Under the pieces are notes generated by a model. The model searched no databases and was not told where the DNA came from. It saw only the letters and a list, made by a program, of their open reading frames with translations. Positions 6,914-38,501 of a stretch of 39,780 nucleotides of DNA are shown one piece after another. The DNA is taken from positions 1 to 39,780 of the forward strand of contig JAAYSQ010000092.1 of assembly GCA_012523925.1 (NCBI GenBank), written 5' to 3'. The position numbers and the translations under genes were made by a program. Position 1 is the stretch's first letter; every line of letters starts with the position of its first letter. Source of the DNA: Clostridiales bacterium. Lineage in GTDB: Bacteria > Bacillota > Clostridia > Lachnospirales > Lachnospiraceae.

Positions 6914-8230
6914 ATGTCATATTTTAGAGTTGGTAAAATTCAATATGAAGGACCACAAAGTAAAAATCCTCTTTCATTTAAGTATTACAACCCAGACGAA
7001 GTAGTTATGGGTAAGACAATGAAAGAGCAGCTTCGTTTCGCTATGTCTTATTGGCATACATTTACATACATGGGAACGGACCCATTCGGTGGCACAACCA
7101 TGTTACGTGAATGGGATAAGACTGATGATGCAATGGAGAAAGCTAAGGAAAGAGTTCGTGCTGCTTTTGAATTTATGGAAAAAATGCAGATTCCTTTCTT
7201 CTGCTTCCATGATGTGGACGTTGCTCCTAGAGGAGAAACTTTAGAAGAGACAAACCGCAATTTAGATGAAATTGTTGAAGTTATTAAAGAAGAAATGGCA
7301 CGTACTGGAATCAAATGTCTATGGGGTACAACTAACGCTTTCGGTGACGAAAAATTCGTTCATGGTGCGAGCACCTCTTGCAATGCTTCCGTATTTGCTT
7401 ATACTGCAGCACAGGTTAAGAAAGCTATGGATATTACAAAGGAATTAGGCGGTGTTAACTATGTATTCTGGGGCGGACGCGAAGGTTATGAGACTTTACT
7501 GAATACAAAGACCGATTTAGAGCTTGATAACTTTGCAAGATTGCTTCAAATGGCAGTGGACTATGCTAAAGAAATTGGTTTCACTGGACAGTTATTAATT
7601 GAGCCTAAGCCAAAGGAGCCTACAAAGCATCAATATGACTTCGATACCGCTACGGTTCTTGCATTCTTAAGAAAATATAATTTACAAGACCATTTCAAGA
7701 TGAATATTGAAGCAAACCATGCAACTCTTGCAATGCATACCTTCCAGCATGAGTTAAATATGAGTAGAATCAATGGCGTTCTTGGTAGTGTGGATGCAAA
7801 CATGGGTGATCCATTGCTTGGATGGGATACAGATCAATTCCCTACCAACTTATATGATACAACCCTTGCTATGTATGAAATCCTTCTTGATGGTGGATTT
7901 ACGAAGGGTGGCTTGAACTTTGATGCTAAGGTTCGTCGTGCTTCCTTCGAAGATGAGGATTTATTCTATTCCTACATCGCAGGTATGGATGCTTTCGCGA
8001 AAGGCTTAAAGGTTGCTGCCAAACTTCTTGAAGATAAAGTGTTTGAGAACTTCAAGGATGAGCGTTATGCAAGCTACAATGAAGGCATTGGTAAAGATAT
8101 CGTTGAAGGTAAAGTAGGCTTTAAGGAATTAGAAGAGTATGCATTAAAGAATGGTGTAACTCCTAACAAATCCGGAAGACAGGAAATGCTTGAGAGTATC
8201 TTAAACCAATACATTCTTGAAACAAAATAA
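6914..8230 (+). CDS. xylA: Xylose isomerase
   Basis: Converts D-xylose to D-xylulose in the cytoplasm with divalent metals. It is 438 residues, matching the long class II enzymes. Visible signatures are FHDVD (98-102, catalytic His99 and Asp102), [30 protein letters not shown] (metal ligand Glu230 and catalytic Lys232), Glu266 in NIEANHA, and [10 protein letters not shown] plus GWDTDQ with further metal ligands. AAGGAGG precedes the ATG by six bases. It has its own promoter and terminator, and no xylulokinase follows, so xylB must lie elsewhere. Around residues 45-62 ([14 protein letters not shown]) it differs from the commoner WWHTLCAGGADPFG version, so it may be a divergent paralog-type branch; the core catalytic residues are intact. 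Confidence 0.96.
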
Positions 8231-31587: not shown

Positions 31588-32166
31588 TTATTGGGTTGGA
31601 GTAAATCCAAAGTAACGCATTATACCCAGATAGATACCATAGGCAAAACCCCATTGATTATCACGGAGTTTTTGAGCATCAGACCAATTAGATAGGTATC
31701 CAAGCTCAATCAAAAGCGAAGGCATCTGCGTACGTCGAAGTACGTAGAGGGTTGGATTTAAACGAATACCATTATTGTTAGTCCCAACAGTTTGTGTAAT
31801 TCCATCCATAATATGTTGAGCGAGCCAGTTCGCCTGCGTGCCATATTGAAAAAGATATACTTCTGTACCATTAATCGCAGGATTTGGGTTGATATTACAA
31901 TGGATGCTTATAAAATAATCTGCAGGCCATGCATTGGCCATCTGTACTCTCTGTTGCAAACTTGTGGCATTGCTCGTACCTATAACTGTCGTAGGAGTTG
32001 GCCGTGATAATCTCGCTTCAAAACGATTGTCATTATTAAGTAAATTTGCTAGATAAAGGCCTACCTGGAAATTGATATCGCCTTCATATAGTCCATTACC
32101 AACGGCTCCTGCATTAACATTACCAGCTGGATTATGGCCTTGATCTATAAAAATCTTAATAGCCAA
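31588..32166 (-). CDS. N-acetylmuramoyl-L-alanine amidase (Amidase_3)
   Basis: Zinc amidase that cuts the bond between muramic acid and the peptide stem of peptidoglycan. The whole 192-residue protein is one Amidase_3 domain. Zinc ligands are His11 (DQGHNP), Glu28 (LYEGDIN) and His89 (SIHCN), with the catalytic Glu154 in LLIELGYLSN. The start is TTG after GGAAAGGAAG on the minus strand. No signal peptide, membrane segment or wall-binding repeat is present, so export is unclear. CwlD-like sporulation or phage-type lysins are alternatives, but no phage genes are nearby. Confidence 0.9.
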   Translation of the reverse strand: MAIKIFIDQGHNPAGNVNAGAVGNGLYEGDINFQVGLYLANLLNNDNRFEARLSRPTPTTVIGTSNATSLQQRVQMANAWPADYFISIHCNINPNPAINGTEVYLFQYGTQANWLAQHIMDGITQTVGTNNNGIRLNPTLYVLRRTQMPSLLIELGYLSNWSDAQKLRDNQWGFAYGIYLGIMRYFGFTPTQ

Positions 32167-32312
32167 AGGAACACTTCCTTTCCATTATACTAGTATATCT
32201 TATTCTTGCTCAGGAAAGGTGTTACTTTATGTATTATTCAAATAAAAAATTTTTAGATAATATGTTATACTTATAATAATAATTAGCTATTTAATTCCAA
32301 GGAGCATACACT

Positions 32313-33170
32313 ATGAGGAAATTTATCGGAAAATCACATAATATCAATAAGAATACTATGATCACAATTGCAATGATATCTAGCTTGGCTGTCGGCATTC
32401 TAATTCTTGTTCTTGGAATGAGCTTTTACAAATACCGCATTGCAGAATTGGGTTTTGCGGATACTTTTGATAATCAGGGGTATCAATATCATTATGTGGT
32501 AATATCAGAGCAAATGGATGATCCTTTTTGGGAATTGATATATCAAGGCGCCTATGAGAAAGGGAAGGAGCAAGGTGCATTGATTGAGAAACTAGGAAGC
32601 AATCTTTCGATTTCCTATTCTTTGGAGGAATTGATGGAGATAGCAATTGCTTCAGAAGTTGATGGGATCCTATTGGAGCCCAACGGAGAAACGACATTAA
32701 CAGAGCTAATTAATGAAGCTGATATGGCAGGAATTCCAGTTATTACGGTGCTTAAAGATGATCCAATTAGTAGAAGGAAGAGTTTTGTTGGTATTAATAG
32801 TTACAACCAGGGACAAGCCTATGGGGAGCAGATTGTATCGATAGCCAATGGAAGGAATTGTGATGTTGTAGTCCTATTAAGTATGGATTCCAAGGATACA
32901 AGTAAGAACATTATTTATTCCGGCATCCGTGATGCCGTTGGCGGACATAATATTACCTTAGAAGCCGAAAGTATCAATAGACATAGTGCGTTTGGATCGG
33001 AGGAAGATATCCGTAAGATAAATAAAGCTAAAGCATTATTACATGATACAGATATAAGCATCAAGAGTATCTGCATCGAAACCGGCTATAGTGATCCAAA
33101 TTACTTCAGTAGAATATTTAAAAAACATGTGGGAATAACACCAACGGAATTTCGAGAGAAGTTTGTTTGA
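32313..33170 (+). pseudogene. In-frame fusion scar: sensor-type sugar-binding protein joined to AraC response-regulator tail
   Basis: The first part (residues 1 to about 231) has a basic cytoplasmic N-terminus, one membrane segment (about 16-40) and most of a periplasmic-binding-protein-like sugar domain (YHYVVISEQMDDPFWEL, GILLEPNGETTL, SFVGINSYNQGQAYGEQ). From about 232 (INKAKALLHDTDISI) it becomes the second helix-turn-helix of an AraC protein, ending GYSDPNYFSRIFKKHVGITP. The first helix-turn-helix, the receiver domain and the end of the sugar domain are missing. In related clusters I know the order sensor-type binding protein, histidine kinase, AraC response regulator, sugar-binding lipoprotein; here it looks as if a deletion removed the middle. 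The topology puts the DNA-binding part outside the cell, so the fused product is unlikely to work as a regulator. An assembly error is the alternative. Confidence 0.75.
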
Positions 33171-33187: not shown

Positions 33188-34225
33188 ATGAGGAAAGTTA
33201 CTAAAAGTTTAGGAATATGGATAGTCTTGATTGTGTTCTTATTTGGGTGTAAACATAGGAAAGAAGTTCCTGGGAATGGCAATATTGTGGATGAGAAAAT
33301 TCAGATAGGGCTTTCGTTTGATTCTTTCGTCATTGAACGCTGGCAAAGGGAGAGGGATATCTTCGTATCTACTGCAAAGGGTCTAGGAGCAGAGGTCAAT
33401 GTTCAAAATGCCAATGGTGACATTAAGGAGCAAATATCACAGATTGAGTACCTAATAGAAAAGAAGATGGATGCCATAGTTGTAATTGCCCAAGATTGTA
33501 CTGCAATCAGTGAAGTGCTAAAGAAAGCGAAGGAAGCAGGGATTATAACCATTGCCTATGATAGGTTAGTTCACAATGCAGACGTAGATCTATACATATC
33601 AATTGACAGTGAAGAAGTGGGTAAATTAATGGCACAAACTCTTATAGACGAAATACCGGAAGGAGGTAATGTTGTTATCATCTATGGTTCACCAGTTGAT
33701 TATAATGTAGCCCTTATGGAGAAAGGGGTTCAGGAAACGCTTATTGATAGTGGACTTCATATTATATATGAAACCTATGCAGAGAATTGGCTTGCTGAGG
33801 AAGCGTTTCATGGTGTGAATACAGCCCTTACGATATCGGAGGAGATTGCTGGTGTTCTATGTGGTAACGATGATCTGGCTAGTCAAGCTTTTCGTGCTCT
33901 TTCTGAGAACCGTATGGCAGGAAATGTTGTCTTAACCGGCCAAGACGCCGAATTAGCTGCTTGTCAAAGAATAGTGGAAGGTACGCAGACCATGACAGTA
34001 TATAAACAGGTAGACAAGTTGGCAAAAAATGTTGCGGAATATGCAATTAAGTTAGTAAAAGGGGAACAAATTGATGTCTCTACAACAATATTTGACGGCA
34101 CATATGAAGTTCCTTATGTTAAACTAGAGGCAATACCAGTTACAAAGGACAATATCGATGAGATAATCATTGAAGGGGGATTTCAGCAGAAGGAAGATGT
34201 ATATCTAAATGTCCCTTCTAAGTAA
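33188..34225 (+). CDS. Sugar-binding lipoprotein (periplasmic-binding-protein family, XylF/ChvE-like)
   Basis: Type I periplasmic-binding-fold protein with a lipobox (FLFGC, Cys21 from the ATG at 33188), so anchored on the outer face of the membrane. It shows DAIVVIAQDCTAISEVLKKAKE, IITIAYDRLV and LTGQDAELAACQRIVEGTQTMTVYK, the usual sugar-pocket segments of XylF/ChvE proteins. The start is uncertain: TTG 33167 overlaps the upstream stop and would be coupled, ATG 33176 and ATG 33188 are in frame; 33188 gives the most typical signal peptide. It is a paralogue of the ChvE-like protein that follows and may serve sensing together with the lost two-component system, or widen substrate range. Confidence 0.82.
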   Translation: MRKVTKSLGIWIVLIVFLFGCKHRKEVPGNGNIVDEKIQIGLSFDSFVIERWQRERDIFVSTAKGLGAEVNVQNANGDIKEQISQIEYLIEKKMDAIVVIAQDCTAISEVLKKAKEAGIITIAYDRLVHNADVDLYISIDSEEVGKLMAQTLIDEIPEGGNVVIIYGSPVDYNVALMEKGVQETLIDSGLHIIYETYAENWLAEEAFHGVNTALTISEEIAGVLCGNDDLASQAFRALSENRMAGNVVLTGQDAELAACQRIVEGTQTMTVYKQVDKLAKNVAEYAIKLVKGEQIDVSTTIFDGTYEVPYVKLEAIPVTKDNIDEIIIEGGFQQKEDVYLNVPSK

Positions 34226-34490: not shown

Positions 34491-34619
34491 GTTATCTAGT
34501 AAAGAGGGGATGAAAAATAAAATTATCATCACTAAAATTTACAGTGGTTTGCAAATTTGTCCTACTTTGTATGTGATATATATAAGGAGTAACAAAAATT
34601 ATATAAGGGAGGATTTCAT

Positions 34620-35699
34620 ATGAAGAAAAGATTACTTGCAATTGTACTTTGTCTCATGATGTTATCTACTATGTTGGCTGGCTGTAGTAAGGACGCACAG
34701 ACCTCTGGAAAAGGAGGCAAAAAAATTGGTGTTGCAATGCCTACAAAGGATCTTCAACGTTGGAACCAAGACGGGGAGAACATGAAGAAGGAATTAGAGG
34801 AAGCAGGCTATAAGGTTGACTTACAGTATGCTAATAATGAAATTGCACAACAGGTTTCCCAGATTGAGAATATGATTACTGGTGGTTGTGACGCATTAGT
34901 TATTGCTTCTATTGACGGTGGTTCCTTAGGTACAGTTTTAGAGGAAGCTAAAAAAGCAAAAATTCCTGTAATTGCTTATGACCGTTTAATCATGGGAACG
35001 GATGCTGTTTCCTACTATGCAACCTTTGATAACTACATGGTTGGAACGATCCAAGGACAATATATCGTAGATCAATTGGATCTTGAAAATGCAGCAGGAC
35101 CATTTAATATTGAATTATTTACTGGTTCCCCAGATGATAACAATGCCCGCTACTTCTTTGGTGGTGCAATGGATATCTTAAATCCTTACATTGATAGTGG
35201 AAAACTCAATGTTGTATCTGGACAGAAAGCATTTGAAGAAGTTGCTACCTTAAACTGGTCAACCGAGGAAGCACAGAAACGTATGGAAAACTTACTTACC
35301 GCTTATTATGCGGATGGAACAAAGCTTGACGTTGTTTTATCCTCCAACGATTCCTGCGCAATTGGTATCACCAATGCTTTAGTGAATGGCGGATATACTT
35401 CTGAGAACTTCCCAATTCTTACCGGTCAGGATTGCGATATTACCTCCGTTAAGAATATTCTTGCAGGAACACAATCCATGTCCATCTTTAAAGATACCCG
35501 TACATTAGCTGCACAGGTAGTTAAGATGGTAAATTCAATTATGAAGGGTGAAGAGGTTCCTATTAATGATACCGAAACTTATGATAATGGCACCGGTATC
35601 GTTCCTACCTATCTATGCGAACCAGTTTTTGCAGATGTAGACAATTACAAGGAACTATTAATTGACTCAGGTTACTATACAGAAGATCAATTGAAATAA
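34620..35699 (+). CDS. chvE: ChvE-type multiple-monosaccharide-binding lipoprotein
   Basis: Extracellular binding component of a monosaccharide ABC importer, 359 residues. The signal peptide ends in the lipobox LAGC (Cys22). IGVAMPTKDLQRWNQDGENM, DALVIASIDGGSLG, VIAYDRLIMGTDAVSYYATFDN (start and end of that segment about residues 119-140), SNDSCAIG, ILTGQDCD and TQSMSIFKD are hallmarks of the ChvE group that binds galactose, arabinose, xylose or glucose. AAGGGAGG lies six bases before the ATG. A hairpin separates it from gguA, so the binding protein is likely made in excess of the membrane parts, as is common. Confidence 0.92.
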   Translation: MKKRLLAIVLCLMMLSTMLAGCSKDAQTSGKGGKKIGVAMPTKDLQRWNQDGENMKKELEEAGYKVDLQYANNEIAQQVSQIENMITGGCDALVIASIDGGSLGTVLEEAKKAKIPVIAYDRLIMGTDAVSYYATFDNYMVGTIQGQYIVDQLDLENAAGPFNIELFTGSPDDNNARYFFGGAMDILNPYIDSGKLNVVSGQKAFEEVATLNWSTEEAQKRMENLLTAYYADGTKLDVVLSSNDSCAIGITNALVNGGYTSENFPILTGQDCDITSVKNILAGTQSMSIFKDTRTLAAQVVKMVNSIMKGEEVPINDTETYDNGTGIVPTYLCEPVFADVDNYKELLIDSGYYTEDQLK

Positions 35700-35802: not shown

Positions 35803-37341
35803 TTGCCTGGTTACTTGTTAGAAATGACAAATATCACGAAGCGTTTCCCGGGTGTTATCGCTTTGGACCATGTTAACCTTCAGGTTGAAGAAGGGGAAAT
35901 CCATGCTTTAGTTGGTGAAAATGGCGCTGGGAAATCAACCTTGATGAATATTTTAAGTGGTGTCTACGGATACGGAAGCTATGAAGGAAAGATTATATAT
36001 CAGGGAGAAGAATGTAAATTTTCTGAAATTAAAGATAGTGAACGGAAAGGGATCGTTATCATACACCAGGAGCTTGCCCTTGTACCATATATGACCATTG
36101 GAGAAAATATGTTTCTTGGGAACGAGCAGGGTGGTAAATATCGTGTTGATTGGGAGGAAACTTACCGTAAAGCAGATCAGTTGCTGAATACCGTGGGACT
36201 TCGAGAGTCTTCAAGAACCTTAATCAAAGATATCGGTATAGGAAAACAGCAGTTGGTTGAAATAGCGAAAGCATTGGCTAAGAATGTAAAACTTCTGATT
36301 TTGGATGAGCCTACCGCATCATTAAATGAAGCGGAAGCTCGTAAATTGCTGGATTTATTATTGCAATTAAAAGAAGAAGGGGTAACCTCGATAATAATAT
36401 CTCATAAATTAAATGAGATTTCTTATGTTGCAGATAAAATTACAATCCTCCGGGATGGTGCTACGATTGAAACCTTGGATAAGAATAAGGATGATATCAG
36501 TGAGGAACGTATCATCAGCGGTATGGTTGGAAGAAAAATGGTGGATCGTTTTCCTAAGAGAGAAGATACAACCATTGGAGAAGTCAATTTAGAAGTAAAG
36601 AATTGGACGGTTTATCATCCGCTATATGCAGGACGTAAGGTAGTGGATAATGTATCCTTGCATGTTCGTAAAGGGGAAGTTGTAGGGATAGCAGGTTTAA
36701 TGGGGGCCGGAAGAACGGAATTAGCTCTAAGTATTTTTGGAAAGAGTTATGGTTTGAATATATCAGGGAGTATTTTTATAAATGGGGAAGAAGTAAAACT
36801 AAATAATTCACGGCAGGCGATTGAAAGGAAACTTGCTTATATTTCGGAAGATCGAAAGGGGAATGGATTGATATTATCCAATCCGATCAGAGAAAATATA
36901 ACGCTTGCGAAGATGGATAAAGTCAGTAGCCATAGTGTTATTGATGGAAATGCAGAGGTAATTGCTGCAAGTGAATTCGTTGAGAAATTACAAACAAAAT
37001 GTACTTCCATCGAGCAACCTGTTGGAAATTTGAGCGGAGGTAATCAGCAAAAAGTATTGGTTAGTAAGTGGATGTTTGCAGATCCCGATATCATGATTTT
37101 AGATGAACCAACCCGCGGAATTGATGTTGGTGCAAAATACGAAATATATTGTATTATCAATCAGTTAGTATCGGAAGGCAAATCAATCCTTATGATATCC
37201 TCGGAACTACCGGAGTTAATTGGTATGTGTGATCGAATCTATATCATGAACGAGGGAAGAATTGTGGGAGAGGTATCAAAAGAGGAAGCTTCACAGGAAC
37301 GAATTATGGGGCAGATTCTAAAAACGAGCAAAGGAGTATAG
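35803..37341 (+). CDS. gguA: Monosaccharide ABC transporter ATP-binding protein (GguA/MmsA)
   Basis: Double ATPase subunit of a CUT2-class importer, 512 residues. The N-terminal domain has GENGAGKST and, later, [18 protein letters not shown]-type signature and [11 protein letters not shown]. The C-terminal domain has a degenerate Walker A ([13 protein letters not shown]), LSGGNQQKV and [19 protein letters not shown], as in RbsA/MglA/GguA proteins. The start is TTG, five bases after GGAGGGGG; from here [13 protein letters not shown] matches the family. It precedes the permease gene by two bases. Confidence 0.94.
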
Positions 37342-37343
37342 AG

Positions 37344-38501
37344 ATGGATAGAGCAAAAGACATATTAAAAAAGAATACCATGTTAATCGCACTAATGATA
37401 ATAACTATATTTTTTGCTTTATTAACTGGTGGAACCTTATTGGTGCCGAGAAATGTAACTAATTTGATTGCCCAGAACGGTTATGTGGTTGTACTTGCCG
37501 TAGGTATGTTAATGTGCATTTTAACTGGTGGTAATATCGACTTATCGGTTGGTTCCGTAGTTGCGCTGGTAGGTGCACTAGCAGGTACGCTGGTTGTTAA
37601 TAAAGGAATGAATATTTGGCTAGCAATGGCAATCTGCCTTGGCGTAGGAATATTAATTGGCGCATGGCAAGGATTTTGGATTGCCTACATACGAATTCCT
37701 GCATTTATTGTAACCTTGGCAGGAATGCTGCTTTGGCGAGGCGTTGCATTAATTATTCTTGGAGGCTTGACAATATCACCTTTCCCAGAAAATTATTTGA
37801 ACATATTTAATAGCTACATTCCCGATGTATTTGGGGGTAATATTAATATCGTAAGTATTATTATCGGCTTTTTAATTTGTGTAGTATATTGTGTTATTCA
37901 AATAATTAATCGGTTAAAATTACGTCGTAAAGGGTATTCCACGGAAAAACCTATCACTACTGTTATAAAGACAGCGGTTATTTGCATCGCAATTATGGTA
38001 TTATCCTATACATTAGCAAGACATGAAGGAATTCCTGCCATTTTAATTCTATTGGGAGTGGTTGTATTGATCTATTCCTATTTCACCAAGAAAACCGTCC
38101 CAGGACGTTATCTCTATGCTGTTGGTGGAAATGAAAAGGCAGCAAAGTTAAGTGGTATCAATACCAATAAAGTGTTGTTCTTTGCCTATGTAAATATGGC
38201 ATTTCTAAGCGCTTTGGCAGCCTTAATGTGCGTAGCAAGATTTAATTCTGCAGCTCCAACTGCAGGAACTAACTATGAGATGGATGCCATTGGCTCTTGC
38301 TATATTGGTGGTGCTTCTGCTTATGGTGGTATTGGTACCGTAGCAGGTGTTGTGATTGGTGCTATATTCATGGGTGTGTTGAATAACGGTATGTCAATCA
38401 TGGGAATTGATTCCAATGTTCAGAAAGCAGTAAAAGGCTTGGTTCTTTTAGCAGCAGTAGCCTTTGACGTACTTTCTAAAAAACGAGGAAAGACTGCTTA
38501 A
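37344..38501 (+). CDS. gguB: Monosaccharide ABC transporter permease (GguB/MmsB)
   Basis: Membrane subunit of the same CUT2 importer, 385 residues with about nine or ten hydrophobic segments. LAVGMLMCILTGGNIDLSVGS and the C-terminal AIGSCYIGGASAYGGIGTVAGVVIGA are the family's conserved parts. A charged cytoplasmic loop (about 190-205, RLKLRRKGYST) is typical of GguB rather than RbsC. An AAAGGAG site lies in the end of gguA. A terminator follows, closing the chvE-gguA-gguB unit. Confidence 0.94.
   Translation: MDRAKDILKKNTMLIALMIITIFFALLTGGTLLVPRNVTNLIAQNGYVVVLAVGMLMCILTGGNIDLSVGSVVALVGALAGTLVVNKGMNIWLAMAICLGVGILIGAWQGFWIAYIRIPAFIVTLAGMLLWRGVALIILGGLTISPFPENYLNIFNSYIPDVFGGNINIVSIIIGFLICVVYCVIQIINRLKLRRKGYSTEKPITTVIKTAVICIAIMVLSYTLARHEGIPAILILLGVVVLIYSYFTKKTVPGRYLYAVGGNEKAAKLSGINTNKVLFFAYVNMAFLSALAALMCVARFNSAAPTAGTNYEMDAIGSCYIGGASAYGGIGTVAGVVIGAIFMGVLNNGMSIMGIDSNVQKAVKGLVLLAAVAFDVLSKKRGKTA

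Follow-up and report, generated by a model that had tools for sequence, protein, structure and literature searches.

The open reading frame at 32313-33170 of the window, by which we mean the whole stretch of 39,780 nucleotides that was analysed, is likely to be the scar of one recent deletion that took away a kinase gene and most of a sensor-regulator gene pair and left a stub in frame. A sequence-only reading of this DNA had proposed a deletion that merged the sensor and regulator genes and removed the kinase and the receiver domain, and the relatives' loci and the genome searches described below support that proposal.

Anatomy of the Fused Open Reading Frame

The fused open reading frame is preceded by AAGGAG at 32299-32304, 5′ of its ATG, which resembles a ribosome-binding site. 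Its parts are as follows.

32313-33170, plus strand: fused open reading frame, 285 amino acids, ATG start, no internal stop
32313-33017, plus strand: residues 1-235, remnant of an XylFII-type membrane-anchored sugar sensor, identified by PF13407 and by identity to the sensors of relatives
33018-33170, plus strand: residues 236-285 and the stop codon, remnant of an AraC-type response regulator (second helix-turn-helix), identified by HTH_18 and by identity to the cognate regulators
33018-33021, plus strand: deletion joint, ATAA, assignable to either side, located by comparing its codons with those of 20 sensors and 20 regulators

In the Pfam comparison, Peripla_BP_4 (PF13407) covered profile positions 2-158 of 258 and HTH_18 covered positions 31-79 of 80, with no receiver domain, and in the separate genes of two intact loci (L062 and L063) the same models covered 3-253 of 258 and 2-80 of 80, respectively. 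Residues 1-235 were 69% identical to the sensor of genome G010 (L062), 63% identical to that of G030, 48-58% identical to those of the other 17 same-genus loci, and 38% identical to that of G037, and they make up about the first two-thirds of a sensor. Residues 236-285 were 62-75% identical to the C-termini of the 20 cognate regulators (66% for G010). These results agree with the earlier description of a sugar-binding domain fused in frame to the last AraC helix-turn-helix; the split into sensor and regulator tail was correctly recognised, but it lies after residue 235 (33017/33018, with ATAA ambiguous) and not after residue 231.

An intact system of this kind has a full sugar-binding sensor domain with an N-terminal anchor and a regulator with a receiver and a complete AraC domain. 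In the window, the sensor domain is partial (its anchor was judged by eye), and the regulator part has neither a receiver nor a complete AraC domain. Residues of about 15 to 38 look to the eye like a hydrophobic anchor, which would place the tail outside the cell. The fused product is almost certainly a dead stub, being without kinase, receiver, complete binding domain, or complete DNA-binding domain.

It is very improbable that selection has maintained the fusion as a protein in a new role, with an extracellular sugar-binding domain and a helix-turn-helix tail. An open frame with a start codon, a ribosome-binding-site-like sequence, and no stops in 285 codons is what such a protein would have, but its sugar-binding domain ends at profile position 158 and its AraC domain begins at position 31, the tail would be outside the cell going by the N-terminal anchor, and none of the listed matches from 60 relatives combines the sensor and regulator parts in one open reading frame.

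The Intact Locus in Relatives

Loci were fetched from 20 relatives, 19 of the same genus and one belonging to a different family in the order. In all 20 there is an intact orthologous locus in which the sensor and the regulator are separate open reading frames, in the same order and on the same strand as the joined fragments in the window; alignment of both halves to intact clusters, the check that the sequence-only reading had recommended, thus returned two separate genes in every case. The positions homologous to residues 232 and 237 of the fusion were 3315-3805 nt apart in the 20 fetched loci and are 15 nt apart in the window. The missing DNA therefore amounts to about 3.3-3.8 kb by the relatives' spacing, more than the 2-3 kb first estimated.

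The gene order in L063 is a divergent amidase gene, the sensor, a kinase (HAMP and His_kinase domains), a response regulator (receiver and AraC domains), a lipoprotein, a ChvE-like protein, and an ABC ATPase, the last two named by their likeness to the proteins of the window. In the window, the divergent upstream neighbour is the same.

31588-32166, minus strand: N-acetylmuramoyl-L-alanine amidase (Amidase_3; Pfam PF01520, E 5e-45)

L062 has an amidase gene in this position too, and the filtered search recovered an amidase homologue in 16 of the 19 same-genus fetched loci. A named genome collection (29 loci) contributed two sensor loci, of which L033 is intact and L034 (genome G024) has the sensor joined to a permease gene, and 27 helix-turn-helix matches.

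The Probable Deletion Joint

The codons at the joint of the window are GAT ATC CGT AAG ATA AAT AAA GCT AAA. At this position the sensors of relatives read E-(D/E/S)-I-R-x-(I/L), where x is Lys in 3 of 20, including the nearest relative G010, and is Lys in G024 too. In the regulators, Arg precedes (I/M)-(E/N)-x-A-K in all 20, and the window has Lys (AAG) there; the codons were checked in the regulator DNA of 17 of the 20 loci plus two more. Because the regulators uniformly carry Arg, AAG is sensor sequence, and the regulator sequence starts at or within ATAA. Therefore, the two sides can share ATAA and no more than one or two further bases, an overlap of about 4-6 bp (ATAA at 33018-33021) whose exact extent depends on the lost Arg codon. 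A 9-bp repeat, GATATCCGT, had been suggested as microhomology common to the sensor and regulator genes. We rejected it as the crossover, since a crossover there would yield Arg-Ile without Lys, whereas the window has AAG after GATATCCGT and the regulator does not resume directly after it.

Deletion pseudogenes that arise in bacterial genomes through short homology have few shared bases at the joint, remnants of the flanking genes, and a young age. The scar in the window has the same features, but it is in frame by chance and so looks like one gene. A single deletion of about 3.3-3.8 kb would have removed the last third of the sensor gene, the entire gene for the LytS-like kinase, and some 90% of the YesN/AraC-like regulator gene, of which only the final 50 codons are left. 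It would have run between very short matches (approximately ATAA), the reading frame being kept by chance, and would have brought the stub directly in front of the XylF-like lipoprotein gene.

It is unlikely that the joint is an assembly or read chimera, with an intact operon in the cells and a wrongly joined contig. An overlap of about 4-6 bp alone cannot make a k-mer assembler collapse a locus, the shared bases being far fewer than assembler k-mers. The assembly collapse that the sequence-only reading gave as its alternative is thus improbable in that form, and a chimeric read or join is the form left standing. Also against a chimera, the 371-base junction region has a single match in its own assembly, and a random join would be in frame only one time in three.

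Absence of the Kinase and Regulator from the Assembly

The cognate LytS-type histidine kinase gene that an intact system would have is absent from the window locus. In the rest of the assembly, the top-scoring match was 32% identical for the kinase, with one short stretch of 40% at the edge of a contig, and 26% identical for the regulator among full-length matches. A cognate kinase or regulator that had been relocated to another contig of the assembly was looked for and not found. Among 33 other genomes of the genus, 22 carry the lipoprotein with at least 54% identity, and these are also the 22 that carry the kinase with at least 50% (the G004 copy is damaged). This makes the genome of the window the only one with the lipoprotein but without the kinase among the 34 genus genomes searched. 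The locus comparison and the search of the assembly agree with the original statement that the kinase gene and the receiver domain are missing.

The assembly consists of 322 contigs and is 85% complete, and the contig is continuous at the locus. For a draft of this kind, the case that the kinase and regulator are absent from the cells is strong but not absolute: fragmentation and incompleteness would suit a chimera, as the missing genes could be unassembled, whereas the failure to find the cognate kinase and regulator on another contig speaks against it. We infer that the join produced by the deletion is present in the cells.

The Transporter and Its Operator-Like Box

The following features lie downstream of the stub.

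33188-34225, plus strand: XylF-like substrate-binding lipoprotein, intact, 75% identical to the G010 orthologue; such a gene normally follows the regulator gene
34534-34562, plus strand: operator-like box AAAATnTACnGTnnnTnGCAAnTTnGTCC, 29 bp, between the lipoprotein gene and chvE, 0 of 21 fixed bases mismatched
34620-35699, plus strand: ChvE, multiple-monosaccharide ABC transporter binding protein (NCBIfam NF040907, above cut-off)
35803-37341, plus strand: GguA, transporter ATP-binding protein (NCBIfam NF040905, above cut-off)
37344-38501, plus strand: GguB, transporter permease (NCBIfam NF040906, above cut-off)

The start codon of the lipoprotein gene was picked by eye (the open reading frame as listed begins at TTG 33167), and the best NCBIfam models for its product are xylF, below their cut-offs. 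The neighbouring genes had been read as a monosaccharide transporter, an assignment borne out by the scores of ChvE, GguA, and GguB.

The box ends 57 bp 5′ of the chvE start codon. It was found with at most 3 of 21 mismatches in all 20 same-genus loci that extend this far (18 of the fetched 20 and two more), where the next-best same-strand sites had at least 7 mismatches and five shuffles per locus gave at least 5. In its own assembly, it is the single site at up to 3 mismatches. The exact pattern was met only in the window, L069, L074, and L075; as the pattern came from an alignment that included the window, the perfect match of the window is not independent, whereas the conservation across relatives is. 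In L062 and L074, the sequence after the box differs from the usual short leader. The box was not found in L073, where the contig ends, in L081, from the other family, or in L098 (G004), which has no transporter behind. An Rfam search of the window gave no match.

Of an intact system, the window thus retains the neighbouring sugar ABC transporter and the conserved box that precedes it. From the position of the box, the lost regulator presumably bound it. The transporter is intact and its box is kept, but it probably operates without its specific sugar induction.

Genes for the use of sugars were also seen elsewhere in this genome. A xylose isomerase-like open reading frame was recognised by eye at 6914-8230 of the window, and a xylulokinase above the XylB cut-off is encoded on another contig (C43); xylose use may be intact despite the lost sensor system. 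The stretch at 220-20530 of the window contains genes that look by eye like those for galactan and galactoside use (sugar ABC permeases and GH35-, GH53-, and GH42-like enzymes).

Age of the Probable Loss

The stub contains no stops, and one of 41 sensor sites that are invariant in 19 other sequences was changed (0-4 in the others by the same test). In the regulator tail, 0 of 20 invariant sites were changed (0-2 in the others). In a neutral-drift simulation, which is a simple model, a stub this clean was obtained in 0.95% of runs at 0.05 substitutions per site and in 0 of 2000 runs at 0.1 substitutions per site. Because the synonymous sites of the sensor fragment are saturated in the comparison with G010, yet the stub is nearly undecayed, the deletion is far younger than the split between the window and G010. 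The loss is probably recent, as had been proposed, the near-absence of decay and the drift simulation both supporting this view. Near-zero decay would also suit the zero elapsed time of a chimera.

The non-synonymous branch of the sensor fragment was 0.143 for the window (bootstrap 0.106-0.182) compared to 0.074 and 0.110 in two comparison genomes, and that of the regulator tail was 0.132 (bootstrap 0.057-0.233) compared to 0.066 and 0.057, in a weak comparison of three sequences only with saturated synonymous sites. There was no such excess for the lipoprotein (0.095 in the window; 0.084 and 0.107 in the others), ChvE (0.025; 0.046 and 0.026), or the amidase (0.021; 0.076 and 0.062). The longer branch hints at relaxed constraint for a while and not at a loss of yesterday; constraint may have been relaxed before the deletion or for a time since. 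A longer branch would be unexpected for the intact functional gene that a chimera implies.

The same branches, and the retention in genome G004 of the same regulator tail after loss of the stretch before it, would fit an older loss in which the remnant has been constrained in another way, for example, because its DNA acts as leader or promoter of the lipoprotein gene. This is hardly to be expected, however, as the constraint (one of 41 invariant sites changed) is at the protein level, which is not what a promoter role preserves. A recent deletion is the reading that we retain.

Other Decayed Copies in the Genus

Two further genus genomes have damaged copies of the locus. In G004 (L098, 1220-5223), which represents another species of the genus, the lipoprotein is kept, a ChvE-like gene is in the place of the sensor before the kinase, the kinase match begins only at residue 36, and there is a frame change near the regulator start. 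The regulator has a deletion from approximately residue 355 to 480 and resumes at M-N-K-A-K, with an endpoint within about 5 bp of that in the window (R/K followed by I/M-N-K-A-K). By our own rough, post hoc arithmetic, two endpoints this close in a 1593-bp gene have about a 1% chance of coincidence.

In G024 (L034, 3-994), the sensor gene leads at residue 262 directly into the central part of a gene for a GguB-like permease, in a different reading frame and with few bases in common at the join; an AsnA-like gene follows. This sensor piece is identical to the intact G010 sensor at 155 of 165 residues. By the sum of the distances in L063 and the window, about 8 kb is missing, and a search of G024 for kinase and lipoprotein orthologues found none. 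The contig has 3526 bases, in an assembly that is 61% complete, and the join reflects either a further deletion (about 8 kb) or a chimera in the contig. Immediately after the interrupted permease gene, at 1022-1250 of L034 and preceded by a masked stretch, there are short reverse-strand open reading frames ending in CPVCGTHHDRDYNAAMNI, by eye the end of a TnpB-type transposon protein.

Deletions were therefore seen in 3 of the 24 genus genomes with a recognisable piece of the locus, all of them draft assemblies, and because G004 and G024 carry different deletions, loss at this locus recurs. A family-wide search for regulators gave a match in 97 of 397 genomes, and five shortened regulators were checked for a deletion in the same place: those of G068 and G227 stop at contig ends, that of G178 has a masked stretch, and those of G141 and G088 retain the whole tail in a single frame. 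We judge it quite improbable that the control circuit behaves as a module that is excised again and again at favoured endpoints. If more strains agree, there would be a hot spot for deletions where the second helix-turn-helix begins, or the DNA of the tail would serve the downstream lipoprotein gene.

Some of these copies bear on the possibility of a chimera. In G001 and G031 (L099-L102), a contig break splits the same regulator gene, and the two contig ends of G001 share 127 bases, which resembles a branch in an assembly graph. The other odd join at this locus is that on the short contig of the incomplete G024 assembly. The decayed loci of G004 and G024, being drafts also, are no proof that joins of this kind are genuine. 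These points are included in our judgement that a chimera is unlikely and that a deletion is the likely cause.

Comparison with Known Systems

Among solved structures, the L063 sensor matched 5xsd, 5xss, and 5xsj best, and we take 5xsd and 5xsj to be the same XylFII protein or complex. 5XSS is XylFII of Clostridium beijerinckii (PMC9601137), and in this organism, xylFGH is regulated by LytS and YesN (PMC7098912). The relatives' loci share the order of parts of this XylFII-LytS/YesN three-component D-xylose system, namely an anchored XylF-like sensor, a LytS-like kinase, an AraC response regulator, and a sugar ABC transporter. They differ from it in that the transporter is of the ChvE/GguA/GguB type, and the window keeps only pieces of the sensor and regulator.

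A further likeness is to CuaDSR of Ruminiclostridium cellulolyticum, in which a binding protein, a kinase, and a regulator activate a neighbouring sugar ABC transporter, whose production ceases when the signalling genes are silenced (PMC10384115). Both are cases of three-component control of an adjacent sugar ABC transporter, but CuaD is a cellobiose lipoprotein, and all three CuaDSR parts are intact. We found no paper on the loss of such a system, which does not prove that none exists.

Taken together, the scar probably reflects the usual decay of genes, here in a three-component sugar-sensing system of a known kind. It is a caution that an in-frame deletion scar can be misannotated as a novel fusion of a sensor and a transcription factor. 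It also offers a clean natural case of a transporter that keeps its conserved box without the sensor, kinase, and regulator, while the kinase and lipoprotein persist in 22 of the 33 other genomes of the genus.
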